A stretch of 64,000 nt of DNA, from assembly GCA_016788565.1 (NCBI GenBank), contig JAEUSP010000019.1:62001-126000 (forward strand), read 5' to 3'. The position numbers and the translations under genes were made by a program. This DNA is from Chlorobiota bacterium. Lineage in GTDB: Bacteria > Bacteroidota > Ignavibacteria > OLB7. Shown piece by piece: positions 36,746-55,174 of the stretch (position 1 is the stretch's first letter; the number at the start of each line of letters is the position of its first letter). The notes beneath the pieces are model-generated. The model had not been told where the DNA came from, searched no databases, and was given only the letters and a program-made list of their open reading frames with translations.

Positions 36746-36846
36746 TAGCCGCCTCGGTTTCCACTGACACTCTGCAGAACATTTCAGGCAGTTGCACCCA
36801 GTCTGTTTGGCTGCTGCCCATTTTCTTCACACTATCCGTCTCCATC

Positions 36847-38679
36847 ATGTCCCGTCACGTTTCCTTCCTGTTCGCCGCCATGTTGTGGCTTGTTGCTGCT
36901 TGCTCAACACCGCGCAGCGTCACAACCACCAGCACGGCAACTTCGGCAGTTGCTACCTACACCGTTGCAATTCCCAATGTAGCTGCCGAGCAGTTTCAGG
37001 TGGTCGCAACGATTAAGGGCATTACCACCGACACCACCACCTACTTCTTTCCAATCTGGGGGCCGGGGGCGTATGATCTTGTCTATTTCGGCAAGTATGT
37101 TCGGAATTTCACGGCAACCGGGGCTAACGGGGAGCCGCTGAAGGTTCGCCAAATGGATAGTAGTTCCTTCCTCATCAGCGGCATCAACGGAGTGGTGAAC
37201 CTTCGCTACGAGGTGAAGGATATTGAAAACGTTCCCAATTCCGCATGGTTTGGCTTAAGTGATATTGAGCCGAACCTTGCTTTTGCTAACACCCCGGCCT
37301 TGTTTGGTTATGCTGCGGGCTACAAGGAAATTCCTCACACAGTCACCTACGCTCGGCCACAGGGGTGGGATATCACCCTCGGTTTGGATCCGATTGCAGG
37401 CCAGCCCGACAGCTATGCCGCACGGGATTATGATGAATTGGTAGATGCCCCAGTTCACATGGGAAAATTTCAACGATTGGAGTTTATGGTGGATGGAAAA
37501 CCACACATCATCAGCATCAATGCCCCGGAACCTCTTTCCAAACTGGATATGCAGTCATTGAGGGACACCGCCCAGCGGGTTGTGCGGATTGTCAGCAATC
37601 TGTTCGGGGAACTTCCCTACAAGCGGTACATTTTCCAAGTGTTCCTTGCTGATATGGATGAAGCATCAGTCTCCGCTTTTGGGGCGTTGGAGCACGCAAA
37701 CAGCTCCACCTATCGGATGCCTTTTGTGAAAGGAGCCGTTGCTCAATCGTTGGCTGAGGTGCTGGCACATGAGTACTGGCATTTGTGGTCGCCAAAGCGT
37801 ATCCATGTTGCGGAATTAGGGCCGTTCAACTATCAGCGGGGGCCGCGTACGCGCTCGTTGTGGTTTGCCGAAGGGCTGACAGAATACTACGCCCAAGCGT
37901 TGCTTGCACGAAACGGGATGGTATCGCCCGAAAAAATTATTGGGGATATCAACCAAGCAGCGGAATCGTTCGGGGTACGGCGGCAACGGGAAGCCATCAC
38001 TGATCTAAGCCTGCGTGTTGCCGAGGCTCCGCTGTTCGAGATTATTGGGCTGTACTCTAAAGGACCAATGATTGGATTCTTGTTAGATGCTGAGATTCGG
38101 TTGCAAACAGGAAACCGGAAATCCTTGGATGATGCCATGCGGTTTTTCAACGAGAAGTATGGCAAAACTGGCATGACCTTTGGGGATGATGATATTATTC
38201 CGGCGATTGAGCAGGCCACCGGCACCAAGCTCTCCGATTTCTACAGCCGCTACATTGCTGGCCGTGAGCCGCTACCGTTTGCTGAGTATCTCCCCCGATT
38301 AGGCTTTACTCCGGTGACAACATACGATACCACCGCAACGTTCGGGGCCACCTTCAGTGCCGATGAAAAAGGGTGGATGGTGGAAGACATCACGCCAAAC
38401 GGAGCTGCGGCGGCAATGGGATTGCAAAAAGGGGATATCCTGACCGAAGTGCAAGGTGGGGACAATCAATTTTCTCTCACAAGCATCCCACCTCAGTTTG
38501 CTGATATGCTAGCAAGCCAACTACCGCCAGGGCTGACGGTCTCGTTTTTGCGCAATGGGGTTGGGAAACAAGCCGAAATTCTGGTAAAAGCTGCGATTGT
38601 TGAACAAAAACAGTGGGGGCTTGATTCAAATGGGGGAGGGCTTGGCGCGCAAATCCGTAGAGCAATGATTGGAGCCTAA
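36847..38679 (+). CDS. M61-family peptidase with PDZ domain, lipoprotein
   Basis: A 610-residue protein from the ATG at 36847. A lipoprotein signal (FLFAAMLWLVAACSTPR) places it on a membrane. The N-terminal beta region (about residues 35-190; YFFPIWGPGAYDLVYFGKYV) precedes the catalytic domain with the zinc motif HEYWHLWSPKR (HExxH) and WFAEGLTEYYA, which supplies the third ligand. The C-terminal PDZ domain (about 515-590) has WMVEDITPNGAAAAMGLQKG. This matches the glycyl aminopeptidase family M61, which releases N-terminal Gly or Ala. All catalytic residues are present. The gene stands 101 bp after the ComB-like gene. Confidence 0.92.
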   Translation: MSRHVSFLFAAMLWLVAACSTPRSVTTTSTATSAVATYTVAIPNVAAEQFQVVATIKGITTDTTTYFFPIWGPGAYDLVYFGKYVRNFTATGANGEPLKVRQMDSSSFLISGINGVVNLRYEVKDIENVPNSAWFGLSDIEPNLAFANTPALFGYAAGYKEIPHTVTYARPQGWDITLGLDPIAGQPDSYAARDYDELVDAPVHMGKFQRLEFMVDGKPHIISINAPEPLSKLDMQSLRDTAQRVVRIVSNLFGELPYKRYIFQVFLADMDEASVSAFGALEHANSSTYRMPFVKGAVAQSLAEVLAHEYWHLWSPKRIHVAELGPFNYQRGPRTRSLWFAEGLTEYYAQALLARNGMVSPEKIIGDINQAAESFGVRRQREAITDLSLRVAEAPLFEIIGLYSKGPMIGFLLDAEIRLQTGNRKSLDDAMRFFNEKYGKTGMTFGDDDIIPAIEQATGTKLSDFYSRYIAGREPLPFAEYLPRLGFTPVTTYDTTATFGATFSADEKGWMVEDITPNGAAAAMGLQKGDILTEVQGGDNQFSLTSIPPQFADMLASQLPPGLTVSFLRNGVGKQAEILVKAAIVEQKQWGLDSNGGGLGAQIRRAMIGA

Positions 38680-39775: not shown

Positions 39776-40492
39776 ATGGCTCAGCAGCCTGATAATGCAG
39801 CAGAAATACTAACTGCTGCCGACACAACCGAAACCGGTGAGCGTTGGGGAATACTCCGCAATGCTCGCCTATTGGCTATTATTGGCATTGTTCTTCTGGC
39901 AGTTGCTGGTGGAGTGTTCTTCTTTTTAAGCAGCCGTGCCGAAGCCCGTGAAGAAGCTCAAGCACAGCTTGCCCGTATCCGCCCATATTATGATCAAGGT
40001 GAGTATGCGGCTGCAATTAGTGGCGATTCTGTAAAAAAAATCGGAAATACCAAGCCGCTTGGCTTACGTGCTATCGTTGAGGAGTATAGTTCAACTCCGG
40101 CTGGAAAAATCGCTGCCCTCTATTTAGGCAATGCCTATCTGGCTACCTCCCAAGCTGCAAAAGCGAAAGACCCGTATGAAGTTGCGACCAGCGCAGACGA
40201 TGATCTAGTACGCGCAGCCGCACATGCTGGATTAGCAGCAGTCTATGAAACACAGAATGCATACGAAAAAGCAGCCGATGAGTATAAAAAAGCAGCAGAC
40301 GAGGATCGTTTAGAGCTTCGTTCGGCTGATTTTTTGCTTGGTGCTGCAAGAAATTATGAGAAGGCAGGAAAGAAGGAAGAAGCTATTCGATATTACCGGA
40401 TGGTTGCTACTAATCAGGGGGAAGCTACTGGAGCTTCCGATGCGGCGTTACAGGCAAAACTTGCCTTAGCCCGCAATAAGGTGGAATTGTAA
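39776..40492 (+). CDS. Membrane-anchored tetratricopeptide-repeat protein
   Basis: A 238-residue protein from the ATG at 39776; the longer frame upstream runs through the tRNA and is not real. A short N-terminal tail precedes one transmembrane helix (LLAIIGIVLLAVAGGVFFFL, about residues 31-50). TPR-like helix pairs follow: AGKIAALYLGNAYLATSQAA, VRAAAHAGLAAVYETQNAYE, KAADEYKKAADEDR and GAARNYEKAGKKEEAIRYYR. The layout resembles YfgM-type anchored TPR proteins that help envelope assembly, but no specific role is shown. It is AT-rich compared with neighbours. Confidence 0.82.
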   Translation: MAQQPDNAAEILTAADTTETGERWGILRNARLLAIIGIVLLAVAGGVFFFLSSRAEAREEAQAQLARIRPYYDQGEYAAAISGDSVKKIGNTKPLGLRAIVEEYSSTPAGKIAALYLGNAYLATSQAAKAKDPYEVATSADDDLVRAAAHAGLAAVYETQNAYEKAADEYKKAADEDRLELRSADFLLGAARNYEKAGKKEEAIRYYRMVATNQGEATGASDAALQAKLALARNKVEL

Positions 40493-40660: not shown

Positions 40661-43600
40661 ATGCAACGTTTGTTGAAGACATTGCTCCTCTCGGCAGCGT
40701 TCGTGCTTGTCGGTCAAAGCGTTCTCGCGCAGACGCTTCCGATTGTGCAAGTAAGCGGGCGCGTGTCGCAGACAGGGCTACGGGTATTCACCAAGGATAC
40801 GCTGTATCAAATAGCGGGTGATTACCACGTTGCCGGCATTCTGCTCATCGAGCCGGGAACAACTGTAGAATTTCTGCCTAACGGCCGACTGATCGACTCG
40901 GTTGGTGGCAGGATCATCGCCGACGGCGATCTCCAAGCAACTTGGAATCGTTCGACGCCTGATCTGACCGCTTATCCTAACGGATTTGCTGACATCAGCT
41001 TTATCCGCGACAACGTCTTTGTCGGGGGCAAGCCAGAAATCACGGCACCGGGCCTTAGTTGGTCCAACTACGCGCCGTATCTCTTTTTCTACTACGGGAA
41101 TTATCTCGATCGCTATCCTTCGGACCCAAATCTGAAGAATGTCGCGTATCGTCGTGACGTTACGCGGGCACCGATCATTTTCCGTGGTCGCCCAGTAAAC
41201 AAGTTCTCGCGCGAGTGGGGACACATCGTTATTCTGCCAGGCGCAGATACAGCAGTGTTCCGCAACGTGCAATTCGTGAACTTCCGCAAGGATACCGCAG
41301 CCGTGAAGACGACGTTCTTCTACGCGCCAAACGGTGCAAATCTTGGCGGCCTATACAACAACGGTCAGATTATTGCGGCTGACCGTCTGAACAAGCAGCT
41401 TCGCACCCTGACCACTGGTGGTGGTGGTGCCCTTACTGTCTTCTCCTCGAAGACTTGGCTGTTGGATTGCCGTTTCGATAGCAACTTTGCTCGCTATCAC
41501 GGTGGTGCTGTGCAGTTCTTGCAGGCTCCGTTCGATAGCACGATCACGGATCCTCAGTACACCTCGTTCTACCCAATGGATACAAACCTTGCTGCGCGCC
41601 CCCAGCATGGGCCGTTCCGCTATCCAAGCTTTGATCCCGAGGATTACGACCACTACACACACGCGATCTCGACTCCGTTCGGTGTCATACCGATTATGAC
41701 GATGACTGATCCGCGCGTGAATTGGGTCGTTGGACCATACACCCCTGCGCCGCCATACGACATGACCGGTATTATCCAATACCGCCAAACGTATGATGAT
41801 GGTCGTCAAGCTATCAACAAAGGGCGCGTTCGTCGCGTTTCCTTCCGTGATAACCGGGTTGTGGTCAGCAATTTCACCGAAGACTTGGCTGGTTATCGCG
41901 ACAATATTGACGAAGTGCCAATCATCAGTAACCCTCTTTCTGGCGGTGTTGCCAAGAATGAGGCCTACGGTGGTGCTGTCTATATCTCCGGTCGCCGTCA
42001 CGTGACGGTTTATTGGGGACGCGCAATGGGTGACCCAATGGACACCGTGGTTGCCGAACGTAACTACGCTGTGAACTTCCAAGGCCCAGTTGCTAGCTCG
42101 CAAGGTGCGCGTGGTGGTGCTATGTATGTGAACGATAGCACTTCGATGGTCTTCCAGCTTGCCCGTTTTGAGAATAACTTTACTGCTGTGCCAAATGTGC
42201 CAATGGATGACTATATCCAACGTGGCCGCATGTCGCAGGGTGGTGGTATCTACATGGGCAAAACCTCACCACAGCTTACTGTGCGTGATGTGATCTACTT
42301 CCGCAACAACAAGGCGGGTCGTGGTGGCGGTATCTACGTTGCCGCCATGGACAATCCGTTTGGTAATAACATCCTGATCTTCGATCCGTTCCTTTCGCCG
42401 AACTTGTTGGGCGATAGCGTCTATTTCATTCGCAATATTGCCGAGTACGACGGTGGTGCGATTTATACGCAGCGGAACATGACGATTGACGCACGGTACT
42501 TGACGCTAAGCGACGGCAGTGGCCGTTTGGTTGACCACCGTATCCTGCTGGACAGCAACGCTGCTGGTTTGGCTGGTGGTGCTATCGTGATTGATAACCA
42601 AACGAACATGATGAAGAGCAACGCCCGGATTACCCGTGCCCTCTTCACGAACAATGCTGCTGGTGATTCGGCAATGGCCTCGGATTTGCGCCTGATCAAA
42701 CTCTATGATCCGGTCAACAATGCAGCCAACCCAATCAATCCGTACAGCGTTCGTACGTACAGCGATTCCTTCCGTCTGCCACGTATCATCACCCAGCATA
42801 TTCTTGGTGGTGGTGCTATCTACTCGCGGTTCGGCAACACCAATTTCTACCAAGCAGTTGAGTTCAATCACAACTGGACAAAGAGCGGAAACGGTGGTGC
42901 TATTGCAATGATCACACCAGTGACCGCAAACCGCTACTTCTTGGCAGAAGGCGACATTGCCTACAATTTCGGATCTAATCAGTCTGTTCCGTTCAACGAC
43001 GGCCCAGAGCCAAGCGATATGCGCCAGATGACCCGATTCCTTCGCAACTACGCAATGAAGGATTCGCTGAACGCTGAGCTGAACGTTGATCCACGTTACA
43101 GCGAGAATATGCTTCTTGATCCGAAGCGTAATGGAACTGGTTTGGGTGGCGCGATCTACATCAATGATCGCCAGCCGCCAGGACCAAACCCAGGTTATGC
43201 ACGTACTGACTCGGTGATTTCACACCGTGTTCGTATGGAGCAAAACTGGGCGTGGTCTGGTGCAGCAGTCTATTCGGATAACTACGAGCTTCGCTTCCTG
43301 CTTAGCAAATCGCTGGTTGCCGGAAACCGCGCACTTTCCGATGAGGGTCGCAATGTTGACACCATCGAAAACTACAAGACCTCGCCGGCTGCAAACCGCA
43401 CCGCTGGGACAATCTTCTACGGTGACATCTCCGGCCCATTGCCGCAGCAGGAGTACCACATTGGTGCTAACTCCATCTACGACAACGATGCACGCTTCTT
43501 ACTCCGCCTGCCGGATGTTCCGCAAGGTTTGGTTGGCAGCGGTCGTAGCGGTGTAGATACCTTGCGTGGCAACTACTGGGGCCAAACAGAAGCTCCGATT

Positions 43601-46600
43601 ACAACGGTGCTTGCCACGGGAACAGCACAGAACACCTTCTACGTAATGGGGAACGGCTGCACCTTGCCGCTGAAAAACCCAACAAAGGTGAACGAACAGG
43701 GACCATTTGAGTCACGTTGGGCTGGCTACAATTACACGCCAATCCCGGTTGGGCTGATTCCTGGCTTGGATACCTTGTTGATGCAAGGTCGTGTGTACGA
43801 CTTGTTCGACAAAGGTGTTGATATCAACAGTGCTGATTACTCCATTCCACGCATGGCTCCAATCGAGGATTTCTCGGTTGGTATCCCCGATCGCCTGCGC
43901 ACCTTTGGTACGCTGGGTGGCCCCAACAGCCCATACATGGATAAAGTCGTTCGTCGCTTGACCCGCGATCCGTGGATTGCTGACGTTGATGCGATCAACA
44001 ACAGCCTGCAACGCGAATGGGTTGGCGATCACCCAATTGGCTATCCGCTCTTCTTGGAAGCACTGGCCAACTACTTGGGCGATCCGAACACCGATAACAA
44101 CGACCAGTACGCATTGAATCAGACAGTCTTCTTTGTCATCAATGCTGAAACCGGTGAATTCGTTCGTGCAAACCTGAAGCAGATTCGTGAAGGAAGCGAC
44201 CTCTTCCGCTCACGCATCGAATTCGTGCCGGACTCGATTAACCGCGATATCCTGATGCGTCGCGCATTGGAAGGCCGTGCTGGCTTCTCCATTGGTGAGT
44301 TGCACCGCTTGGCTCCACGCTGGTATGTGGAACAAGGCTACAGCTTAGAACATGCACGCCTTGCCGCAGCCAAGTACGAAGACTCGGTTGCAGTGGCTGG
44401 CCGCCGTTATGGTGGTTTGGTTAGCGAGCTTGGTGGCGTGAACTTCCGCTACATCAACCGCGTGAACCCAGTCACGTTTGCCGATGTGTATGGTGGCGAA
44501 CGCTACCACGCACTTCCGGTGTTGACGGGCGACCGTATCTGGGTTGTTAGCCGCACCATGTTGTGGGATGTCAACGAAGACATCACTACAGTTGTGAACA
44601 ACGCTCGCTTTGCTGGTCTGGAATTCCAGATTGACGACGACAACAGCGTTCTTGCACCGATCATCTACGGCGACAAAACCGCTTTGGAATCGAAGCAACC
44701 AGCAGAGCTGCGCAACACACGCTTCTTGATCGAAGATGCCAACTATCCAAGCGATAAAACTGGCCGTATTAAGTCGCAAATCTTCGACATCACGGCAGTT
44801 GACATCAATGGATTCTACGATCCACGCTCCTTCTACTTCCCAGATCGCTACACCGGTCTGGAATATGCTTGGACTCCGTTGGTTGAGTTCCCGAATTCAT
44901 CGCTGGCGGTTCCAAGCACCAACCCAGCCGAAATTCGTTTGGCATCGTGGCTGAAAGCTGATACGGTCTTCCCATCGGCAGTTCATGCAAACGCGATTAC
45001 ACGCGATAGCGCGCACCGTTATGGTTTCGTCCGCTTCTACGGCCAGCCACACAACCCAGACGTAGTGCCGGGTGGTGAGTTGTTCGAGATTCGGGTGACG
45101 AACTATCCGCCAAGCGTCCGCACGGTTGACTCGTTGAAGGGCTTGGTTGCGGATGACACGGTTGCCAAATACATCTATCTCTATCCACCGTACTACAACT
45201 GCCAAGTTTACGATCCACAAACGGCTCGTTACTTGCAGCAGGATACGGTTGATGTGACGGGTGCGGCAACCGCAACCTATCGCTTCCGCATCTTCGTTCA
45301 GGACACACGCCCGAACTTCTTGGGTGATGTGGCCAAGTGCCCAGGTCGCGGCATCTATAATGCCGTTGCACAGGTCACCGATTCGCTCCGTTTCGACTTT
45401 GACATCAACACGGACGATGAGAACGAAGACAACGACGCAGCAACCCGCGATAACTGGAGCTTCCCATACGGACGCACCACGTACGGCTTCCAGTTCACCG
45501 ATCGGAATAGCGGAAACAACTCGAACACGCTTCCGACCGAAAATGATGATGCCAAAGAAATCCGTCCGGTGTGGATGGGTGATGGATACTTACACGACAT
45601 CAATCGTGCACCAGATCAGGGAGCTACGGTGCTTCAGACTGGTAATGTGATTGTGCGTATGACAGAGGTTGTTGCTTTGAACTTGCTGAAAAACCCAGCA
45701 CAGTCGAACAACCTGTACAACACCGACACGATCTTCACGATTGTGGCGAACGACGGACACACTGGCCAAAACCAGCGCAACGTTCGGGTGTATGTGAATA
45801 TCGCTCCATCACTGGTTGCACAAACGCTGCCAGGTGCTAAGGAAGATATTGACTACAACCCAACGCTGTTGGATTCCAACAAGCGGATTAAAGCTGAAGA
45901 CCTGAACAAGGGTGATCGTGTTCGGTTCACGCTCGTCTATCGCGACGATGCACTGAACCCAGCAGACCTGCGTACAGGTGGACAGACGTTAGATAAGAAT
46001 GGTGCGCCAATCCAGCACACCTCAACAATCGCCTTCGTGCGTCGCGACCCATGCTACTTTGAAGCAGGTGTCTATAACGCACCGAAGACAACACCAAGCT
46101 GGTTAAAGATCAACCCAATCTCAGGTATTCTGTACGGTACGCCGGGCTTGAACGATGCTCCGCATCTTTCCACCAACCCGAACTTCCCGCCACAGTTTGG
46201 CCCAGATACGGTGACAGTGATTGCCGAGGACGAGTATGGATTGACCGACGTCGAGACCTACATCTTGGAAGTTGATTCCACGAACCACAAGCCAAAACTG
46301 TTCGGTCGCCCGGCAGTGCAGTGCGTGTTTGCTGGTGAAGCCTACAAGGATAGTCTCTGCGTGCGTGATCGTGACCTCGGTCGTCTAGACCCACGCTTCT
46401 ATGAGGAGTTGAAGCTGCGCGCATACTCCGATGCACCTGCATACCAAGGAGTGACCTTCACGGTGACACCAAACACCATCAAGGGCGCAACAAACGACAC
46501 GAACTGCTTCCAGATTTCGGCGAATATCCCAGCCAACGTTCCGGCTGGCAAGATGCCGATCACCGTTGAGGTGACCGATCTGGGTGGCAATAAGGACTAC

Positions 46601-47524
46601 CTGACGTATGAGATTTCGATCAGCGAAGGTCTGATCTTCAGCGTACCGGTTCGTGTTCAGAACACGAACTTGGGTGAACAGAGCGTGGCTTATCAAGACA
46701 TGATCTTCGGCATGGCACGTAATGCAACTACGGGCGAAGAGCCAAGCGCATACGGCCGTCTTGATTCGCAATACTGCGAGTATGAGATTCCGCCGAAGCC
46801 ACCAACCGACGTGTTCGATGCTCGTTGGACAATCCCGAACGTGAACGGCGTTCAGCGCAACATCTTCCCGCAGAACCCAAGCCCGGGCCAGGGTGAGATT
46901 GCTTGGAAAGCCAGCTACCAAGCCGGACACCAAGACAATAGCAGCCCGAACCTGCCGATTATGATCTGCTGGGCAAAGAAGGATATTGACACAGCAATCC
47001 GTCGCAACGGCGGCTTCAAGCTCCATATCATGGATCTTGGTGGCGGTTCAATCTTCCGCGTGGATATGCAGAACCCAACTGGCCAGGGTGCGAAATTGAC
47101 ACAAGGTATTGTGGTGCAACAACGCGCCAACGGCGATACCATCTGCCTTGTCATCAACTTGACAACGCTGGATGGATTCAAGATCGCCTACGGCTTGACC
47201 TCGGATGCACCAGAAGAGCCGACAACCGGTGGTAGCATGAATCTTACCAAGTACATGCTGGCTCCGAACGCGCCAAACCCATTTGCAGCAACAACGCAAA
47301 TCGGTTTCTACGCGCCGAAGAGTGGATCAGTAACCCTTGATGTGTACAATGTCAATGGCGAATTGGTCAAGACGCTGATTAACGGAACTGTGGATGCAGG
47401 CAACAACACCGTGGAATGGAATGGCACCGACAACAACGGGAAAGCCGTTGCCAGCGGAGCTTATACCTACCGTCTGACAGCAGGCGCAACGGTGCTAAGC
47501 CGGACCATGATCCTGACGAGGTAA
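40661..47524 (+). CDS. Giant T9SS-secreted protein with Pmp-like beta-helix repeats
   Basis: A 2287-residue protein. The start is the ATG at 40661, with AGGAGG 4 bp upstream; the signal peptide is TLLLSAAFVLVGQSVLAQ. From about 41400 to 43170 it carries at least ten GGA[IVM]Y-type repeats (GGAVYISG, GGAMYVND, GGGIYMGK, GGAIYTQR), as in chlamydial polymorphic membrane proteins and other right-handed beta-helices. A long unrecognised middle follows. A putative-Ig-like block is at about 46090-46290 (INPISGILYGTPGLNDAP). It ends with a T9SS type A domain: NAPNPFAATTQIGFYAPKSG, LDVYNVNGELVKTLING and ASGAYTYRLTAG. It is probably surface-exposed or released. Codon use is strongly biased. Confidence 0.9.
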   Translation: MQRLLKTLLLSAAFVLVGQSVLAQTLPIVQVSGRVSQTGLRVFTKDTLYQIAGDYHVAGILLIEPGTTVEFLPNGRLIDSVGGRIIADGDLQATWNRSTPDLTAYPNGFADISFIRDNVFVGGKPEITAPGLSWSNYAPYLFFYYGNYLDRYPSDPNLKNVAYRRDVTRAPIIFRGRPVNKFSREWGHIVILPGADTAVFRNVQFVNFRKDTAAVKTTFFYAPNGANLGGLYNNGQIIAADRLNKQLRTLTTGGGGALTVFSSKTWLLDCRFDSNFARYHGGAVQFLQAPFDSTITDPQYTSFYPMDTNLAARPQHGPFRYPSFDPEDYDHYTHAISTPFGVIPIMTMTDPRVNWVVGPYTPAPPYDMTGIIQYRQTYDDGRQAINKGRVRRVSFRDNRVVVSNFTEDLAGYRDNIDEVPIISNPLSGGVAKNEAYGGAVYISGRRHVTVYWGRAMGDPMDTVVAERNYAVNFQGPVASSQGARGGAMYVNDSTSMVFQLARFENNFTAVPNVPMDDYIQRGRMSQGGGIYMGKTSPQLTVRDVIYFRNNKAGRGGGIYVAAMDNPFGNNILIFDPFLSPNLLGDSVYFIRNIAEYDGGAIYTQRNMTIDARYLTLSDGSGRLVDHRILLDSNAAGLAGGAIVIDNQTNMMKSNARITRALFTNNAAGDSAMASDLRLIKLYDPVNNAANPINPYSVRTYSDSFRLPRIITQHILGGGAIYSRFGNTNFYQAVEFNHNWTKSGNGGAIAMITPVTANRYFLAEGDIAYNFGSNQSVPFNDGPEPSDMRQMTRFLRNYAMKDSLNAELNVDPRYSENMLLDPKRNGTGLGGAIYINDRQPPGPNPGYARTDSVISHRVRMEQNWAWSGAAVYSDNYELRFLLSKSLVAGNRALSDEGRNVDTIENYKTSPAANRTAGTIFYGDISGPLPQQEYHIGANSIYDNDARFLLRLPDVPQGLVGSGRSGVDTLRGNYWGQTEAPITTVLATGTAQNTFYVMGNGCTLPLKNPTKVNEQGPFESRWAGYNYTPIPVGLIPGLDTLLMQGRVYDLFDKGVDINSADYSIPRMAPIEDFSVGIPDRLRTFGTLGGPNSPYMDKVVRRLTRDPWIADVDAINNSLQREWVGDHPIGYPLFLEALANYLGDPNTDNNDQYALNQTVFFVINAETGEFVRANLKQIREGSDLFRSRIEFVPDSINRDILMRRALEGRAGFSIGELHRLAPRWYVEQGYSLEHARLAAAKYEDSVAVAGRRYGGLVSELGGVNFRYINRVNPVTFADVYGGERYHALPVLTGDRIWVVSRTMLWDVNEDITTVVNNARFAGLEFQIDDDNSVLAPIIYGDKTALESKQPAELRNTRFLIEDANYPSDKTGRIKSQIFDITAVDINGFYDPRSFYFPDRYTGLEYAWTPLVEFPNSSLAVPSTNPAEIRLASWLKADTVFPSAVHANAITRDSAHRYGFVRFYGQPHNPDVVPGGELFEIRVTNYPPSVRTVDSLKGLVADDTVAKYIYLYPPYYNCQVYDPQTARYLQQDTVDVTGAATATYRFRIFVQDTRPNFLGDVAKCPGRGIYNAVAQVTDSLRFDFDINTDDENEDNDAATRDNWSFPYGRTTYGFQFTDRNSGNNSNTLPTENDDAKEIRPVWMGDGYLHDINRAPDQGATVLQTGNVIVRMTEVVALNLLKNPAQSNNLYNTDTIFTIVANDGHTGQNQRNVRVYVNIAPSLVAQTLPGAKEDIDYNPTLLDSNKRIKAEDLNKGDRVRFTLVYRDDALNPADLRTGGQTLDKNGAPIQHTSTIAFVRRDPCYFEAGVYNAPKTTPSWLKINPISGILYGTPGLNDAPHLSTNPNFPPQFGPDTVTVIAEDEYGLTDVETYILEVDSTNHKPKLFGRPAVQCVFAGEAYKDSLCVRDRDLGRLDPRFYEELKLRAYSDAPAYQGVTFTVTPNTIKGATNDTNCFQISANIPANVPAGKMPITVEVTDLGGNKDYLTYEISISEGLIFSVPVRVQNTNLGEQSVAYQDMIFGMARNATTGEEPSAYGRLDSQYCEYEIPPKPPTDVFDARWTIPNVNGVQRNIFPQNPSPGQGEIAWKASYQAGHQDNSSPNLPIMICWAKKDIDTAIRRNGGFKLHIMDLGGGSIFRVDMQNPTGQGAKLTQGIVVQQRANGDTICLVINLTTLDGFKIAYGLTSDAPEEPTTGGSMNLTKYMLAPNAPNPFAATTQIGFYAPKSGSVTLDVYNVNGELVKTLINGTVDAGNNTVEWNGTDNNGKAVASGAYTYRLTAGATVLSRTMILTR

Positions 47525-47556
47525 CGACCCCGGCGTAATCTATCAACACTACTGAA

Positions 47557-47586
47557 CAGATGGCGGGCTTCACTGCCCGCCATCTG
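47557..47586. repeat. Perfect 12-bp inverted repeat between two exported-protein genes
   Basis: CAGATGGCGGGC (47557-47568), loop TTCACT, GCCCGCCATCTG (47575-47586), 32 bp after the stop of the giant protein gene. No T-run follows on either strand, so it is more likely a processing or attenuation element than a full terminator. Confidence 0.7.
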
Positions 47587-47666
47587 CCAGTAACCGAAAG
47601 GGGGGTTGATGGGTTGTGAAAGCGAGAAAGAGAACAATGTTAGAAACAGGATATAGGAGAAACAGC

Positions 47667-49736
47667 ATGAAACTGAGTCGAACAATTTTCGGAGTTGCTG
47701 CCGGGGTGGCTCTGTTAGCAGCGGGGGCTGCGCAGACCGCTTGGGCGCAGCACATTGCCGATCAATTCACGATCAGTACTCAAAACGTGCTGTACCAGCC
47801 ACAGGCCGGCAAGGGAATTATCATCCCGCGCAACGCGTTCTTGGATGTGTACAGCAACGTGGTGAATCCTGATGACGGTGTTGCCGGCCCAATCCCCATC
47901 GGATTCCCATTCGAATTCGATAACCAGTTGTTTACCGATGTCTATATCTCGGTAAATGGTTGGCTGAACTTTGAAGGACGCTTTATCACTAGCGACCCAT
48001 ACACACTGTTCAGCGCAAACAATGGTCCAAACTTGACGGTGGCTCCTTACTTTGGTGACCACTATCTGCGTACCCCAGGGTACGACTTGACCGATCCACT
48101 GGGGCGTACTTATACGCCAAGCTATATCCGCTACATCCAAGAGGATGGTGGATTTGATGCCCAGGGGAACCCACTTCAAGATCGCTTTATCGTTGAATGG
48201 GAAAACCTGAATATCAACTACTACTTCGATCCGGTCTATCCGGATGATCCATTCTCGCCAAATCGCCAGCCGCAGGCTCCGTCAATCGCTTCGTTCCAAG
48301 CACACTTGGTGGAAGCTCCATTTAATGAGCCGTCGCGTTCGGGTGATGTTGAATTCCATTACGGACCAGCCGGTACCAGCAGTGGAACCAGTATCGTCAA
48401 GATCAGTGGCGCATCGGTTGGTTTGGAAAGCGCGCCATACGTGCCAAACGGAGCCACATCTTGGATGAACGCCGTTGCTTGGCTAGAAAGTGGGTTTGAC
48501 AATGACAGCTTGCGCAAAAGCACACGCTTAACCGCAAACTGGCCACCATCCGGCTTGCCAGGTCGCATCTTCCTCTTCTCATCGCGCCACGTCCGTCGTA
48601 TCGGCTCGTGGGGTGATGGCGATGCGAATTTGACGCAGTTGGACGTGTTGCTCCCAGGTTCTATCCGTGGGGATCAACGCCGCTTTGTGACCTTTGCAGA
48701 TGTCATCCGCATCTTGCGTCACTCGGCAACGCGTAACTTGGCAAGCACACAAACCAGCACAGTTGATTTTGACTCAGTGTTCGGTCGTCACGGCTTCCAC
48801 GGTGATGTGAACCACAATGGGCGTTTCTACTATTCCTCCAGCAAGTACAACAACAGTGGTGACTCGTTGGATGGGTTTGGGCAGATCGTCTATTACAAGG
48901 TTCTCTTCCCAACCAAAGATGTGAACCCGGCACTCCCCTTCCCACAAGACAACACCTTCAACGGCTTCTTGTTTGATGCCGATGAGTTTGACGCATCGTT
49001 GATTATGACCTACTTGGCCGCCAAGCTGCCAGTGCTTCCGTGGTTGCCAGATACGTTGCCACCATTCACCGGTAAGGCTATGCCAGCCGTGGCTAACAAT
49101 GTTGATCTTCGGATTGGCGGAACGGTGACGGGGAATACTGTAGAAATCCCAGTGCGCTTTAACGGCGTGGTGAACGGAGCGCAAAGCATCGCTTTTGATG
49201 CTGCCCCAGGAACCAAGATTGTGGATATCCGCTTCAACGACCGTACTGACAGCAAGTGGGTAACCGGTTATGCTACGGAAAACCGCGCAGCAATTGCCGC
49301 CACGGGTCACTTCGAACAAGGTGATGTGGTTGCAACCTTGGTTGTGGAAGCTAACCCACAGGGTGATGTGGTCTTCCGTAATGTTCGCTTCAGCGAGAAG
49401 GATAAGGGGTTGTACCGCCTTAGCCCGAACAGCACAGTGGAGACTGGAGCAGCCACGTTAGGCTTGGCGCAAAACACGCCAAACCCATTCACCGCAAACG
49501 CCAAAACTAGCATCAGCTACGCAACTCATGTTGATGGATCTGTGACGCTGCGCGTGTTCGACGTTCTTGGCCGTGAGGTTCGTACGCTTATCAACAGCGA
49601 TGTGAAAGCCGGAACCTACACTACCGAATGGGATGGCCTAAATGCCGAAGGCAAGCAAGTTGAGTCTGGTATCTACTACTACCAAATTCAAGCTGGTGGC
49701 AAAAGCGTAACCCGCTCGATGCAGGTGCAGAAGTAA
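47667..49736 (+). CDS. T9SS-secreted protein with cohesin-like and dockerin-like segments
   Basis: A 689-residue protein. The start is the ATG at 47667, with AGGAGAAAC upstream; the signal peptide is FGVAAGVALLAAGAAQTAWA. The N-terminal half has IPIGFPFEFDNQLFTDVYIS and NGWLNFEG, resembling NIDO/PKD-rich surface proteins. In the middle, FVTFADVIRILRHSATRN, GDVNHNGRFYYSSS and FDADEFDASLIMTYLAAKLP resemble the loops and helices of a dockerin. A cohesin-like block follows (RIGGTVTGNTVEIPVRFNGV). It ends with a T9SS type A domain: QNTPNPFTANAKTSISYATH, LRVFDVLGREVRTLINSDV and SGIYYYQIQAGG. The function is unknown; cell-surface display is likely. Confidence 0.87.
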   Translation: MKLSRTIFGVAAGVALLAAGAAQTAWAQHIADQFTISTQNVLYQPQAGKGIIIPRNAFLDVYSNVVNPDDGVAGPIPIGFPFEFDNQLFTDVYISVNGWLNFEGRFITSDPYTLFSANNGPNLTVAPYFGDHYLRTPGYDLTDPLGRTYTPSYIRYIQEDGGFDAQGNPLQDRFIVEWENLNINYYFDPVYPDDPFSPNRQPQAPSIASFQAHLVEAPFNEPSRSGDVEFHYGPAGTSSGTSIVKISGASVGLESAPYVPNGATSWMNAVAWLESGFDNDSLRKSTRLTANWPPSGLPGRIFLFSSRHVRRIGSWGDGDANLTQLDVLLPGSIRGDQRRFVTFADVIRILRHSATRNLASTQTSTVDFDSVFGRHGFHGDVNHNGRFYYSSSKYNNSGDSLDGFGQIVYYKVLFPTKDVNPALPFPQDNTFNGFLFDADEFDASLIMTYLAAKLPVLPWLPDTLPPFTGKAMPAVANNVDLRIGGTVTGNTVEIPVRFNGVVNGAQSIAFDAAPGTKIVDIRFNDRTDSKWVTGYATENRAAIAATGHFEQGDVVATLVVEANPQGDVVFRNVRFSEKDKGLYRLSPNSTVETGAATLGLAQNTPNPFTANAKTSISYATHVDGSVTLRVFDVLGREVRTLINSDVKAGTYTTEWDGLNAEGKQVESGIYYYQIQAGGKSVTRSMQVQK

Positions 49737-49786
49737 TTACTGCTCTTGTATCATAGCCGAATCTCTGGAATAACCGGTGAGCATAG

Positions 49787-51079
49787 ATGCGATTAGCGAA
49801 GACGATAGTGGCGATGGTGATGCTTGTTGCTTTGTGCTCACCGGTTCTCCGGTCCCAGTCGGTACGTCCATTGACAATCTGGATTGATACAACCACAATC
49901 CACCCATGTGGCCAGAAGAAATTTTTGCTAAAAATCTGGTCAAGCTACCAGAGCGATACGGGGCGCGTAGTTGGGTTCACTAAGGAAGACAGTTTGTTTT
50001 CCGTAACGCTGTCGTTGCAGTGGGATCGTTCGAAATTTGATATCAATCCTAACCCTCCGATATCAGGCCATATTGCTGGGCGCGCATTCCGGCGTACGGT
50101 CACGAAGGATAGCAAGCAGGGGAACTTGTACATCGAGTTCAACGGAATTGATGACAACCTTCAGCTTCGTCCTTTTTTTGGCACCGATATTCCGTTGCTG
50201 ACATTTGAGGCAACGGTCACTTCGCCCGATGTTTTCTCTGGGCTTCATGGTTGGGCCGAAGTGCTTGGCAATTTGACAGTCGAGGCAGCAAAACCATTTG
50301 AATTGGTGGCGCGCCGAGTGGGGTTTGTTCATGTTGAACGAATCCCTCTACCGCAATACACCGCAAAAGCAACACTGCTTTCTGCGAACTTCGATACGCT
50401 ACGGCAAACGACTGTAGCATTGAAGATTGAAAATGTGAAAGATCAAGGGGTGAAAGAGATCGCCTTTACCCTGCGCTCGGATACGGCATGGTATCGCTTT
50501 ATTGATACTGCCACACAAGGAACTATCTATGCTGAGCCTGGATGGAAGGTCCGGCAACTGCAGATCGCTCCCGACTCATTATCTGGATTATTACAGCGAG
50601 ATTCGGCTGTAACTACCGACGGCACCTTGTTGAATGTGGTGCTGCAACGGAGAAGCGATAGCAGCTTCAGCAAAGCGATCATTCTTGAAAAATTCAGTGT
50701 TGATACCGCTTCCTGCATCAGCCGGGCGGATCGTGAGAATGGGGTTGTGAGGGCCGAGCGAATCGTTAAGCCCGACACAACCGATACAACAACAACCGTT
50801 GGTGTTGATGAACAATGGAAGGAATCAACGCCAACTGTACAGATTCTCCAGCACGTTGATAACGATAAAGTTGTAGTGAGAACGGAAGGAATCGCTGCAA
50901 ACAGAGTAATCGTTGTTGACATTTTGGGGCGGCAAATTCCAACAAAAATTCTGGCCAGCCCAGATGCTTGGACAAGAGTCGTTCGATTTGAGGAAGGATT
51001 ACAGAACGGGTGCTACATCATTTCTGTGTTCGACGACTCCAAAAAAAGCGCAAACAATCAGTTCACAGTCATAAAGTAA
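49787..51079 (+). CDS. Exported protein with cohesin-like segment and degenerate T9SS-type tail
   Basis: A 430-residue protein with the signal peptide AKTIVAMVMLVALCSPVLRS. The next about 150 residues (SVTLSLQWDRSKFDINPNPP and GTDIPLLTFEATVTS) have the strand order of cohesin-like beta-sandwiches. The C-terminus has VDILGRQIPTKIL and EEGLQNGCYIISVFDDSK, which resembles the last two strands of T9SS type A domains, but the usual PNP start is not evident. It begins 50 bp after the previous gene and ends 28 bp before the next, so it belongs to the same unit. Confidence 0.78.
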   Translation: MRLAKTIVAMVMLVALCSPVLRSQSVRPLTIWIDTTTIHPCGQKKFLLKIWSSYQSDTGRVVGFTKEDSLFSVTLSLQWDRSKFDINPNPPISGHIAGRAFRRTVTKDSKQGNLYIEFNGIDDNLQLRPFFGTDIPLLTFEATVTSPDVFSGLHGWAEVLGNLTVEAAKPFELVARRVGFVHVERIPLPQYTAKATLLSANFDTLRQTTVALKIENVKDQGVKEIAFTLRSDTAWYRFIDTATQGTIYAEPGWKVRQLQIAPDSLSGLLQRDSAVTTDGTLLNVVLQRRSDSSFSKAIILEKFSVDTASCISRADRENGVVRAERIVKPDTTDTTTTVGVDEQWKESTPTVQILQHVDNDKVVVRTEGIAANRVIVVDILGRQIPTKILASPDAWTRVVRFEEGLQNGCYIISVFDDSKKSANNQFTVIK

Positions 51080-51107
51080 CATCTCTCAAACCAAGGAGAT
51101 ATGATCC

Positions 51108-54100
51108 ATGCGTAAACGTTATTGGTTAGCAGGGATGCAAGCGTTGATGGTCGGAGCCTTGCTCCTCATCTGCGCAGGCCAAAGTCTTGCACAAGGGCTG
51201 GGCAAAAAGCATCTTCCCACAATCACACTACAGAAGTGGACCGGGCCGCCCACGGGTGTTCTGGCACGCGACACGAATTTTGTTTCCGAGCCAGGGCCGG
51301 GGGAAAAGCGATTCCTTCTGCTCCCAGTCTTCATTATGAACTGCTTGGATACATCCAACGATCCAATCAATGGATATCCGGGGGAGCGTATCTACAGCTT
51401 TCGTATGAAGCTCCAGTACAACAGCACCTTGCTTCGTGCAGTTGGTGTCCAAAAGCGTGGTCAATTCCCCAACGACAATGACCTTGTGGTTGCTCGTGAT
51501 TTCAACATGAGCTGGGATATTGATCAGGATGCGGACTATAAACTTGAGACGGTTGGTGGCCCATCGGCATACGGTGAACGCATTATGGTCACTGGTAGCT
51601 CTTCTACAGCACTGCCGTTGCCATTGAAACCAAACGCACCTCCTGGTGCAAAAGGCTGTCAATGGGGTGACACTGCTGTCTTCTTCTACGTCTTGTTCGA
51701 GGTTGTTGGCGATGCACAAGGAAGTACTTCCGGCATCAACACCGACCAGATGATCCTGACCCTTGACTCACTCCGTTGGAATGAATATGCTCCTGGCCGG
51801 GTGACACCTGAAATGGAAGCTCGTGGCTTCGAGAAATTCCAAGAAGGTGTGGCTCCAACACGCATTTTGGATCCAAATACTGGCGAGCCATTTATTCCGA
51901 ACACATACGGAACATCGTACATCTCCATCACGCCGCGTCCACGCATTGACTTGTTGCCAACAAGCCAAGTTGCGCAGATTAACAGCGATCCATCCAACTA
52001 TGAGTTGGTCTTCCCACTGCAAACACAGTACGGGAACCCGAATCGCATCTTCCGCAATATTCTGATGGTGAACGGCGTGCAGGGAACAAAACTCCGCAAT
52101 ATCACTGTCGAGACCGATGCGCCATGGTTGCGCATTGACTCCAACGACGTGGTGAACCCAGGCGTTGGCGGTGGTGGTGACGGTACTGGCCGTGGGCTAT
52201 TCTTCCGCGAGATTGGATTGCAGCAAAACTTCAACGTTGTTGCTAACCCAGCACTGTTGCCAACGGCTGACGGCTCTGGGTATCCAACACCGGGCATCTA
52301 CATCGGCTACATCACGCTTCGCTCGGTTGACGCTTTGAACAGTGCTGTGCGCCTGCGCATCGTGCTGATTGTGAACCGCAATCCGTTGGAGTCTGGCCTT
52401 GACACTAGCTCAGAGCCAACAAGCACCAGAGGTATCCGCTTGATGTTCCGTAACTCGGCACCAAGCCCAGACACCACCTACTTGACCTTTGGCACCGGTA
52501 TTGGCGCAACCGATGCTCCCGACCTGTTGTTTGGTGAAGCAGAAGCCGCAACACCGGGAAGCGTCAATCAGTTCTACGCACGCTTCTTTCCGCCGCTGCT
52601 GGGCGCAGGGTTCAATGGCTTAGTTGATACACGTGGCTTGCCGCCAGTGACAACCAATCCAGCAACTAACCTGCAGAGCTTGGATATTCGCGAGTACCGC
52701 GTGGATACTACCATCGTCTATTGCGTGAAATTCAGCGCAGGTGCGCCACAGAATTATCCAGTAGTGATTGAGTACGATACCCGTGACTTCCCACCAAATG
52801 CGTTGCTCTACCTGCGGGATAATCTGAACGGAACCATTTTCAATTACGATATGCGCGGAACCACAAACGTGGGACCAACCACTCGCACCATCGTGATTCG
52901 CGATCCGAACGTCACTGGGTTCTGCATTGAATACACCTTGCCAAGCGTGATTCAATTCCCAGAAGTTCGCGAGCGTGGCTGGAACTTCGTTTCGTTGCCA
53001 GTGGTTCCTTCCAATCCTACGTCAGGAACGGTGTTCCCGAATATCTCTTCGGGTCGTCCGTTGCTGTTCAATGGTGGTAACGGCTTCCTGCCAATGGACA
53101 CAGTGGCACCAGGCTATGGCTACTTTGTAAAATATGGCGATGTGGTTGACCGCACAGTTTCAGGTGTGGCAGTCAAACGGATAGATCCAACCTTGCCGCT
53201 GTACATTAACGTCAGGCTTAACCTCGGTTGGAATACCGTTGGAGCACTGTCGGTGCCAACCTACGCGGATGACACCTACATGACCTTCCGGCCAATCGGT
53301 TCGGGGCGTTCCCCATCCAGAGTTGGAGAGGTCTATTCGTACACGCCGCAGCGTGGATATGTGCAGACCGCACGCATCCTGCCGGGCCTTGGCTACTGGA
53401 TTAAAGTGGATGGAAGCGGCTACTACATTCTAACCGCACCACCAAGCGAGCTTAACGGCAAGATCGAGCCAAAAATTGCTGACGACTACAAAGTCCTGAA
53501 CCAGCTCCGCATCAGCGATGCCGACCAAAAGGTTAGCACGCTCTACTTCGGACGCAATGGCTCGGTGAGCAACAGTCGCTACGAACTTCCACCGGCTCCG
53601 GGCGAGTCAATGTTCGATGCACGCTTTAGCAACAATGGATTTGTCAGTGCCAGCAAGGAAGCGACCGCATCGCATGTTGTGAGCTTCCAGGGTACCGAGT
53701 ATCCAGTGGTTCTGTCGGTCAATAATGCTGATGTTGAGTACGTTGTCAGCGATGCCCTAACCGGCTACGTTCTTGGCACGTTGAAGCAGGGTGAAGCTGG
53801 TGCAATCCGCATCAACAACCCATTGGTGAAATCAGTGAAGTTGACGGCAGTCGGAACGGCCAGCACCATGCTTGGAGCAGCCTATCCGAACCCAGCCACC
53901 AACACCGCTTCGTTCGAGTTTGCAGTGCCAACCGAGCAACAGGTGACAATCACCTTGATTAATGCTTTGGGTGTTGAGGTGAAGAGTCTCTACAGCGGCG
54001 TTGCAACCGGGCTGAATCGCGTAGAAATCGCCACCGAAGGCTTGGCCGCAGGTGTGTACTTCTACAAGATGACCACCAACGGACGCACCGAAACGCGCCA

Positions 54101-54119
54101 ACTAGTTATCGCTAACTAA
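51108..54119 (+). CDS. Large T9SS-secreted protein
   Basis: A 1003-residue protein with AAGGAGATATG upstream. The signal peptide is ALMVGALLLICAGQSLAQ. Near the N-terminus RIYSFRMKLQYNSTLLRAVG and DTAVFFYVLFEVVGDAQGS look cohesin-like. Further segments are strand-rich and include WNFVSLPVVPSNPTSGTVFP followed by GYGYFVKYGD and LGWNTVGALS, a paired pattern common in FCB surface proteins. It ends with the T9SS type A domain AAYPNPATNTASFEFAVPTE, INALGVEVKSLYSGVATGLN and AAGVYFYKMTTNGRTE. A terminator follows 43 bp later. Codon use matches the giant protein gene. Confidence 0.88.
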   Translation: MRKRYWLAGMQALMVGALLLICAGQSLAQGLGKKHLPTITLQKWTGPPTGVLARDTNFVSEPGPGEKRFLLLPVFIMNCLDTSNDPINGYPGERIYSFRMKLQYNSTLLRAVGVQKRGQFPNDNDLVVARDFNMSWDIDQDADYKLETVGGPSAYGERIMVTGSSSTALPLPLKPNAPPGAKGCQWGDTAVFFYVLFEVVGDAQGSTSGINTDQMILTLDSLRWNEYAPGRVTPEMEARGFEKFQEGVAPTRILDPNTGEPFIPNTYGTSYISITPRPRIDLLPTSQVAQINSDPSNYELVFPLQTQYGNPNRIFRNILMVNGVQGTKLRNITVETDAPWLRIDSNDVVNPGVGGGGDGTGRGLFFREIGLQQNFNVVANPALLPTADGSGYPTPGIYIGYITLRSVDALNSAVRLRIVLIVNRNPLESGLDTSSEPTSTRGIRLMFRNSAPSPDTTYLTFGTGIGATDAPDLLFGEAEAATPGSVNQFYARFFPPLLGAGFNGLVDTRGLPPVTTNPATNLQSLDIREYRVDTTIVYCVKFSAGAPQNYPVVIEYDTRDFPPNALLYLRDNLNGTIFNYDMRGTTNVGPTTRTIVIRDPNVTGFCIEYTLPSVIQFPEVRERGWNFVSLPVVPSNPTSGTVFPNISSGRPLLFNGGNGFLPMDTVAPGYGYFVKYGDVVDRTVSGVAVKRIDPTLPLYINVRLNLGWNTVGALSVPTYADDTYMTFRPIGSGRSPSRVGEVYSYTPQRGYVQTARILPGLGYWIKVDGSGYYILTAPPSELNGKIEPKIADDYKVLNQLRISDADQKVSTLYFGRNGSVSNSRYELPPAPGESMFDARFSNNGFVSASKEATASHVVSFQGTEYPVVLSVNNADVEYVVSDALTGYVLGTLKQGEAGAIRINNPLVKSVKLTAVGTASTMLGAAYPNPATNTASFEFAVPTEQQVTITLINALGVEVKSLYSGVATGLNRVEIATEGLAAGVYFYKMTTNGRTETRQLVIAN

Positions 54120-54162
54120 GGCGACGCAAGGGGATAACCTTCCCCCTGCCGAAAAAACGGAG

Positions 54163-54194
54163 ATGGGCAGGTTCTGCATAAAGAGCCTGCCCAT
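54163..54194 (+). terminator. Terminator after the 1003-residue secreted protein gene
   Basis: ATGGGCAGGTTCT (54163-54175), loop GCATAA, AGAGCCTGCCCAT (54182-54194), then TTTC. The 13-bp stem has one G-U pair. It separates the main exported-protein unit from the last, smaller gene. Confidence 0.75.
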
Positions 54195-54278
54195 TTCATG
54201 TTACTGTAACGCCCCCAGTTGCTGGGTGTCGCGCTCCTGAGAACAATTCCAGAACACAACACACACTCCGACCGAATA

Positions 54279-55094
54279 ATGAGATTCCGTGCATTGATGT
54301 TTCCAAGCCTCCTCCTGTTGCTTGCAACTGCTTCGCTATCGGCACAAGTCACCATCATAGACTCGATCAATATCCGTAGCGAAAGCTCTTCCGACATCCC
54401 AATTTATGGCCGCTTTGGCGTGGGGGAGCAGTATCACGATTGGGTGGATGGACTTGTAGATTTTGAAGTCCCCTTCTTCCCCCCTTCCGGGCTTTATATC
54501 CTCTTTCAGCATCAGATAGATTCCGGTTCACCAGCGCAAGGGCTGTGCGTTGCTGATGTTCGCGGCATTCCCCCAACCGCTCTTGAGGGGGAAGGGGATA
54601 CCTTCTCTGTCACCTACCTTCTGCGAATCCAGCGTGGCGTTGGGCGGAACATCATCTTTAACTTCCACCGCCCTTTTGCTCGCGGCATTGATTCCGTTGT
54701 TGTTACCGACCTGAACAACGTCTATTACGCCCACACGTTTACCACCGGTGTGGAGGAAGACACTCTAAAAAATGATGGTGTGAACGGCGTCTATATCAAA
54801 GCCTACTACAACATCCGCCGCTACAACTCGGCTGTGGCGGAACAGCCACGTTTTGCATCGGGAAGGTTTGCGCCAAACCCAACCAGTGGGCGGTTGCAAC
54901 ACAGCCAACCACTACCGCTGGGAAGCTCAATCCAAGTAAGCAACATCAGGGGTGAGGTCGTGGAAACGCGGCAAGTAGATAGCCCCGAAACCGCAATAGA
55001 ACTATCCAATCTTCCCGCCGGAGCATACGTGGTGACGGTGCAAACGCGCGACGGGAAATTGTGGGATCGTGAGCAGGTTGTGGTGGCCCGATAA
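54279..55094 (+). CDS. Exported protein with short T9SS-type tail
   Basis: A 271-residue protein from the ATG at 54279, with signal peptide LMFPSLLLLLATASLSAQ. A beta-rich body follows: GLVDFEVPFFPPSGLYILFQ, TFSVTYLLRIQRGVGRNIIF. The tail has GRFAPNPTSGRLQHSQPLPL, VSNIRGEVVETRQVD and LPAGAYVVTVQTRDG, a T9SS type A-like sorting domain. The PNPTSG start and PAGAY strand are clear. It lies behind the terminator of the previous gene, so it may have its own promoter. The function is unknown. Confidence 0.82.
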   Translation: MRFRALMFPSLLLLLATASLSAQVTIIDSINIRSESSSDIPIYGRFGVGEQYHDWVDGLVDFEVPFFPPSGLYILFQHQIDSGSPAQGLCVADVRGIPPTALEGEGDTFSVTYLLRIQRGVGRNIIFNFHRPFARGIDSVVVTDLNNVYYAHTFTTGVEEDTLKNDGVNGVYIKAYYNIRRYNSAVAEQPRFASGRFAPNPTSGRLQHSQPLPLGSSIQVSNIRGEVVETRQVDSPETAIELSNLPAGAYVVTVQTRDGKLWDREQVVVAR

Positions 55095-55133: not shown

Positions 55134-55174
55134 CAGGGCGCAACATCTTCTGTGATGCTGCGCCCTGCTTTTTT
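55134..55174. terminator. Terminator between convergent genes
   Basis: CAGGGCGCA plus CATC (55134-55147, one mismatch) pairs with GATG plus TGCGCCCTG (55154-55167), followed by CTTTTTT. On the minus strand a GTTGTTTTTG tract follows the same hairpin, so it can end both the secreted-protein gene and aspS. Confidence 0.85.

Follow-up and report, generated by a model that had tools for sequence, protein, structure and literature searches.

A predicted split-loop dockerin beside probable tandem cohesins in a conserved block of genes for exported proteins of Kapaibacteria-type bacteria

In a 64,000-nucleotide stretch of DNA from a Chlorobiota bacterium (contig JAEUSP010000019.1, positions 62,001 to 126,000; hereafter the window), five consecutive same-strand open reading frames (ORFs), g1 to g5, occupy positions 40661 to 55094. 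We observed that g2 encodes a module which, in predicted models, takes up the three-helix dockerin fold with both of its calcium loops interrupted by inserts, and that the adjoining gene, g3, probably encodes tandem cohesin domains. This arrangement suggests that g1 to g5 may form a core surface complex exported by the type IX secretion system (T9SS), in which the dockerin of g2 docks on the cohesins of g3 or g4; we rate the chances of this proposal as about even. Contact between the proteins, binding of calcium and location at the cell surface are all things that we infer.

The dockerin module of g2

The g2 ORF (47667 to 49736, + strand, as are all features of the block given below) encodes 689 amino acids (aa) comprising a signal peptide, a nidogen (NIDO)-like domain, the split-loop dockerin, a cohesin-like beta-sandwich and a FlgD/T9SS tail. 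Using alignment, an excision test and a predicted model, the dockerin-like module was placed at residues 313 to 463 (48603 to 49055), where it forms two F-hand repeats. In the alignment, the first calcium-type loop runs from D319 to D345 (48621 to 48701), its loop positions 6 and 8 being separated by an insert, and the second, GDVNHNGR...DEFDA, from D380 to D442 (48804 to 48992). An earlier note on this DNA had pointed to dockerin-like parts in the 689-residue protein; both pieces quoted there are real and together constitute repeat 2, and repeat 1 had been overlooked. In the window, repeat 1 reads WGDGDANLTQ ... FVTFADVIRILRH. Its consensus is WG.GD.(D/N).(S/T) ... Q...VT..D...I, and that of repeat 2 is (G/A)D(V/A)(N/D)H.GR ... 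DA..I..Y ... LP(W/Y).

On comparing 77 orthologous proteins, calcium ligand positions 1 and 12 were found to be D in both loops of every one (D319, D345, D380 and D442). Position 3 is D or N in 73/77 for loop 1 and 77/77 for loop 2, and position 5 is S or T in 75/77 for loop 1 and N, S, D or T in 77/77 for loop 2. W315, G316, G318, Q337, V341, H383, G385, R386, A443, L457 and P458 are also invariant. Alignment columns 320 to 340, which contain the loop 1 insert, hold 17 to 22 residues as against 6 in a normal loop, and columns 387 to 438 of loop 2 hold 13 to 113.

When these inserts were removed in silico, the Pfam profile Dockerin_1 matched 52/52 g2 members at E <= 1, the best with an E of 6.9e-13; the g2 of the window was matched with E 4.6e-4 and 20.8 bits, which is below the cut-off of 22.9. 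Control shuffles that kept the ligand positions were matched in 4/52, the best with E 0.04. The cut points had been picked to restore dockerin spacing, a choice that the ligand-preserving shuffles cover only partly. Shuffles served as controls because a search for the ligand pattern among 800 ORFs of more than 250 aa in 80 loci, with the listed g2 orthologues excluded, gave no decoys; its 4 matches were all fragments of g2.

For orthologue L063, in which the inserts are short, the predicted model of the module has a predicted local distance difference test score (pLDDT) of 91.2 and a predicted template-modelling score of 0.84. VIA aligned 185 chains to this model, 20 of them at a Z of at least 2, and all 14 entries listed are dockerins. 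The best match was 5m2s_B (Z 9.0, root-mean-square deviation 1.9 A, 70 residues) and the third-listed 5n5p_B (Z 8.3); 6 chains have a Z of at least 8, below which a match may reflect a common arrangement. The ten best PDB matches of the same model in Foldseek were also all dockerin chains. In the model of the whole g2 of the window (pLDDT 87.9), helices are predicted at residues 343 to 355, 375 to 379 and 440 to 450, corresponding to the dockerin helices; the VIA matches of this full model were filled by its C-terminal domain and hold little information on the dockerin. Comparison of the dockerin profile with PDB sequences gave chance-level matches only, a prefoldin (0.16) standing ahead of the dockerin chain 4uyp_B (1.6). 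At the level of predicted models, the g2 module has the three-helix dockerin fold.

Inserts of this kind have precedents. Published examples are an insert of 12 residues in loop 2 of the Ruminococcus flavefaciens ScaA dockerin and one of 13 in CttA (PMC5934362), a 4-residue calcium-loop insert in the A. cellulolyticus ScaA dockerin (PMC5141474) and the family 4a dockerins with their three inserts (PMC4266597). Since accepted dockerins with one split loop exist, we file the g2 module, even though its intact sequence misses the Pfam profile, as a split-loop variant of type I (PF00404) and not among its canonical members. In type I dockerins the key contact residues lie at F-hand positions 11, 12, 18, 19, 22 and 23 (PMC4728124). 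By our own position mapping, the candidate contact residues of g2 are mostly N344 and R/K351 in repeat 1, and mostly E440, Y441 and Y449 in repeat 2. Because the two repeats differ at these positions, one binding orientation would be expected, not two.

Cohesins and the conserved gene order

The g3 ORF (49787 to 51079) encodes an exported, probable tandem cohesin protein of 430 aa with a degenerate T9SS tail. Its cohesin domain 1 (residues 24 to 172, 49856 to 50302) and cohesin-like domain 2 (residues 173 to 312, 50303 to 50722) were both recognised by profile search of the PDB. At E <= 1 the domain 1 profile matched 9 PDB sequences, each from a cohesin or scaffoldin chain, the best being 6kgc (1.7e-4); 5nrk and 5nrm, labelled endoglucanase in the table, belong to entries titled cohesin-dockerin complexes and were counted accordingly. 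The domain 2 profile matched 4dh2_A (E 9e-4) and several other cohesins among its 21 matches, the remainder being unrelated. Homology of the two domains to each other was not seen by profile comparison. With the Pfam cohesin profile PF00963 (cut-off 24.1 bits), the g3 of the window scored 13.7 bits at residues 209 to 294, and two of the nine relatives scanned, L075 and L133, scored 47.8 bits (E 2.3e-12) and 24.8 bits; the other seven had no cohesin match at E <= 0.1. In the g3 alignment, 11/60 members were matched at E <= 1. We also noticed that the cysteines C41 and C310 are nearly invariant among relatives despite strong divergence elsewhere, so that a role in a disulphide or in attachment is possible.

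Three cohesin-like proteins had been claimed for the block, and this claim was borne out: for g3 by profile matches of both domains to solved cohesins, for g4 by a profile match to g3 domain 1, and for g2 by fold but not by sequence. The g4 ORF (51108 to 54119, 1003 aa) has an N-terminal cohesin-like domain, further beta domains and a T9SS tail (about 53883 to 54116). The N-terminal domain (residues 36 to 282, 51213 to 51953) aligned with g3 domain 1 in hhalign with a probability of 93 and an E of 3.5e-7; taken alone it is weak, with a PF00963 match in 1/47 members (E 0.035) and 4dh2_A as best PDB match (0.63). In g2, residues 468 to 592 (49068 to 49442) are cohesin-like by predicted fold only. 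The best Foldseek match of the whole g2 model is the cohesin-FN3 structure 2w1n (E 2.9e-8), and the cohesin-like 2jh2 was matched with E 6.2e-4; no cohesin was among the PDB profile matches of this segment, and its homology to g3 domain 1 was not seen by profile comparison.

It may be argued that these resemblances are chance patterns in ordinary immunoglobulin (Ig)/FlgD-type T9SS proteins, as Dockerin_1 matches no intact g2 and the cohesin scores of g3 and g4 in the window itself are below the Pfam cut-off. We consider this highly improbable, given the outcome of the excision test (52/52 as against 4/52 in the shuffle control), a list of structural relatives of the L063 model made up of dockerins, the retention of ligand positions 1 and 12 in 77/77 orthologues and the cohesin matches over the cut-off in relatives of g3. 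An Ig/FlgD-only reading without dockerin loops, which the earlier note had named as the outcome that would speak against it, was rejected on the same grounds; what we found is a predicted dockerin fold in which both calcium loops can be recognised, and a tandem-cohesin gene adjoining it.

Gene order was compared in 16 genomes initially, and then in the best 80 of 135 relatives found, many of them about 30% identical to the window. The same order recurred in both sets: a gene for a tetratricopeptide repeat (TPR) protein, g1, g2, one gene of about 1.1 to 1.5 kb (g3) and g4. Among the 80 loci, g1 adjoins g2 in 75/75 holding both, g2 is followed by a one-gene slot of 967 to 1498 bases and then by g4 in 75/75, and the TPR gene is directly upstream of g1 in 71/71 with both; in the 9/80 loci that lack g1 or g4, a contig end truncates the block. 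An ORF could be assigned to the g3 slot by a length rule in 72/75 loci. After g4 an ORF was present in 71/71 loci with room, and 66 of these ORFs encode 240 to 311 aa (the g5 slot). The window's neighbours are not conserved, purE being near the block in 2/61 and aspS in 1/69 loci with room (the names purE, aspS and hflX were assigned from sequence, not from the profile scan). The unbroken gene order across the lineage supports a shared complex.

The record titles of the 80 named relatives are mostly Kapaibacterium, Kapabacteria, Ignavibacteria, Chlorobiota or Bacteroidota/Bacteroidetes, and the lineage of the block is of the Kapaibacteria type. The g2 profile matched 5/5 genomes of the window's order, 100/123 of a second order and 82/294 of a class sample, 11 of the last only from profile position 405 onward. 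The g4 profile matched 106/123 genomes of the second order and 71/395 of a phylum sample, 34 at full length and 37 only from a profile position of at least 465, the C-terminal half beyond this point being the widespread part. Both genes are near-universal in lineages of the Kapaibacteria type and mostly single copy, both are absent from family f24 (0/10 genomes each), and no relative of g2 was found on viral contigs. This distribution and gene order are best explained by a core operon that Kapaibacteria-type bacteria have inherited vertically.

Some individual genomes deserve mention. In family f24, 4/10 genomes have dockerin matches at E <= 0.01 despite lacking g2 and g4, and offer a natural absence for comparison. 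Two copies of the block, L080 and L103, lie on one contig (BPHJ01000001.1) and so in one genome, the g2 of L103 being split into two ORFs. The g2 ORFs of L048, L119, L128 and L133 encode 917 to 945 aa, about 230 residues more than usual, and in family f6 the g2 profile matches twice with its N-terminal part, which indicates a domain duplication. Of the named relatives, the closest, at 97% identity, bears the title Armatimonadetes, and others are titled Desulfobulbaceae and Bradyrhizobiaceae (L055, L070, L085); because they carry this gene block, their labels or bins are probably in error.

The proposed complex and its alternatives

The earlier note had described five consecutive exported proteins with T9SS-type tails or remnants, and the ORF table and profile scans agree with it. 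TIGR04183 scored above its cut-off of 23 bits in g1 (28.4), g2 (33.7), g4 (45.4) and g5 (36.9), and at 13.9 bits, below the cut-off, in g3; Por_Secre_tail was matched at E <= 1 in 43/60 members of the g3 alignment. The signal-peptide-like N-termini of the five ORFs were judged by eye. SprA, a T9SS translocon protein, is encoded in the genome (714 bits), so that both marks of T9SS type A cargo are present: a C-terminal sorting domain, allowing for the low score of g3, and the translocon.

The codon usage of the block is uneven. Among the codons for Arg, Gly, Ile and Pro, the avoided codons CGG, CGA, AGA, AGG, GGG, ATA and CCC account for 5% in g1, 9% in g2 and 9% in g4, and for 34% in g3 and 32% in g5; for comparison, 14 genes from the ribosomal-protein region have 0-30%, and the 26 other genes of the window that were tested have 13-43%. 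This codon set was chosen after the codon adaptation index had been calculated and is post hoc. As a separate check, the effective number of codons (Nc') in relatives is below that of flanking ORFs for g1 in 67/71, g2 in 61/76 and g4 in 63/73 loci, and that of g3 resembles the flanks (medians 55.6 and 53.7). Codon usage of this kind suggests that g1, g2 and g4 are probably abundant proteins and that g3 is probably not.

Based on these observations, we propose that the proteins would be exported by T9SS, attached to the cell surface and joined there. Outside the cell, the g2 dockerin would fold around two calcium ions and act as a plug, and the g3 cohesins (our first choice) or the g4 cohesin-like domain would be the sockets on which it docks, probably in one orientation. 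Docking would tie the abundant g1, g2 and g4 into a surface assembly, in which the scarcer g3 and g5 may be adaptors or caps. Assembly into a complex had already been suggested in the earlier note, and is strengthened by the dockerin fold beside a tandem-cohesin gene and by the unbroken gene order; the cohesin-dockerin contact and a surface layer are, here as there, what we infer. A more far-reaching version, which we hold only tentatively, is that the block encodes an undescribed T9SS-exported surface organelle or coat of Kapaibacteria-type bacteria, with a lineage-wide cohesin-dockerin bond of structural, non-enzymatic and ancestral use and with both calcium loops expanded into specificity loops.

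Several results weigh against the proposed complex. Dockerin_1 matches 0/52 intact g2 members, and Foldseek gave no dockerin match to the L063 model at E <= 0.001, the best being 0.063. By a plain codon adaptation index, g1, g2 and g4 could not be told apart from ordinary genes of the window. Since g3 lacks the high-expression codon signature of g2, a simple one-to-one lattice of g2 and g3 is doubtful. Finally, in relatives the g3 cohesins could pair with canonical dockerins encoded elsewhere in the genome.

The last point leads to the reading that partners lie outside the operon, the g2 dockerin binding other exported cohesins and the g3 cohesins other dockerins in a wider T9SS network. Canonical dockerins over the Pfam cut-off were found in 74/123 genomes of the second order, often in frames of about 450-550 aa or about 2000 aa, and the window's genome contains an unlinked 882-aa frame with PF00963 over the cut-off. 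However, no canonical dockerin was found in the window's genome (best E 0.82), where the only dockerin found is that of g2, beside tandem cohesins. We regard partners outside the operon as unlikely, and a wider dockerin-cohesin network in relatives as likely. The canonical dockerin proteins of relatives (L137:2692-4083, - strand; L140:2178-3626, + strand; L138:69-5945, + strand) are T9SS-type proteins of two kinds: one of about 470 aa, in which beta-rich segments that look cohesin-like by eye flank the dockerin, and one of about 2000 aa with Laminin_G domains.

A somewhat stronger rival, though still rather improbable in our view, is that the dockerin- and cohesin-like domains are stable building blocks, the g2 dockerin being a calcium-stabilised spacer within its chain and the five proteins separate adhesins or lattice subunits without cohesin-dockerin contacts. 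The dockerin is indeed internal in g2, with the cohesin-like domain directly after it in the same chain, and its most conserved residues include those of loops, core and turns besides the helix faces. Mean column identity is 19% for g3 as against 24% for g2 and 33% for g4, which indicates a weaker constraint on g3. Nevertheless, unless it had a partner role, a tandem-cohesin gene fixed as neighbour in all relatives that allow a test would be hard to account for, and over the link between the dockerin and the cohesin-like domain (about residues 460-490) the model has low-to-middling confidence and gives no hint of rigid packing.

The remaining features of the block and its surroundings are as follows. 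The first conserved gene is that of the TPR protein (39776 to 40492, + strand; ORF list, scan and synteny), which has a probable N-terminal membrane segment and an uncertain start codon, the longest ORF starting at 39626. The g1 ORF (40661 to 47524) encodes 2287 aa with a signal peptide, polymorphic-outer-membrane-protein (POMP) repeats, Ig-like segments and a T9SS/FlgD tail (about 47273-47521); besides TIGR04183, it is matched by Chlam_PMP (5.2e-12), POMP_repeat (1.4e-9) and FlgD_ig (1.6e-13). In g2, the N-terminal beta-sandwich (47754 to 48581) is NIDO-like by profile and model, with a NIDO match in 15/52 members (best E 1.2e-4) and a predicted domain of pLDDT mostly above 85, and the T9SS/FlgD-type C-terminal domain (49464 to 49733) matches PorU 6za2 with a Z of 11.9 in VIA. 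The short exported protein g5 (54279 to 55094, 271 aa) was identified by its T9SS tail (TIGR04183) and the conservation of its slot.

Between g1 and g2 lies an RNA stem-loop (47534 to 47618, + strand) with an inner hairpin at 47557-47586 and without a T tract. Its folding energy is -46.6 kcal/mol (z -3.8, 0/200 shuffles equally stable), it is absent from the list of 14 terminator-like sites, and a role in protecting the g1 message or in setting the ratio of g1 to g2 is possible. Downstream of g5, aspS lies in convergent orientation, and between the two is a terminator-like hairpin (55134 to 55167, listed on the - strand) which, with 14 pairs, has the longest stem of the 14 such sites found, as against 15.6 expected in shuffles. 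Upstream, a gene for an M61-family peptidase with a PDZ domain (36709-38679) adjoins the block in just 1/80 loci.

Relation to known systems

Cohesin-dockerin bonds are known chiefly from the cellulosomes of Gram-positive fibre degraders. A cellulosome was considered for the present block and rejected, as g1 to g5 contain no cellulase, scaffoldin, carbohydrate-active enzyme or carbohydrate-binding family in Pfam/NCBIfam scans. If our proposal is true, a near-universal and mostly single-copy pairing without cellulosome parts would mean that the cell surface uses this bond as a core building joint, and would provide a candidate surface structure for a largely uncultured lineage. The doubly split loops, with 13 to 113 residues in loop 2, form a natural series on how far interruption of a calcium loop is tolerated and on a possible role of the inserts in specificity. 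Within the open-licence literature, we found no publication on this block and no comparable T9SS operon with cohesin-dockerin modules, and the accessible part of a survey of cellulosome bacteria (PMC11557425) contains no occurrence of Kapa, Ignavi or Chlorobi. As far as we could find, the inserts in both loops, the lineage-wide conservation, the T9SS setting and the lack of cellulosome parts are new.

Like g2, the split-loop dockerins of R. flavefaciens (ScaA Doc 5n5p, CttA X-Doc) and the type II dockerin of A. cellulolyticus ScaA have two F-hand repeats with a calcium-loop insert; compared with the split-loop dockerins of Ruminococcus, g2 has both loops interrupted, loop 2 by 13-113 residues, across a whole lineage of bacteria with T9SS. 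In X-Doc dyads, too, a single chain carries a dockerin next to a beta-sandwich module, but the sandwich of g2 comes after the dockerin and is cohesin-like by fold, and a rigid contact is not indicated. As regards clostridial cohesins (PF00963), the g3 domains match solved cohesins by profile, a relative reaching 47.8 bits, whereas g3 differs from the clostridial proteins in having just two cohesins per chain, a T9SS tail and the nearly invariant cysteines C41 and C310. With the T9SS surface cargo of Bacteroidota the block shares the signal peptides, the type A C-terminal domains and SprA in the genome, and it is set apart from that cargo as a fixed operon with cohesin-dockerin modules.

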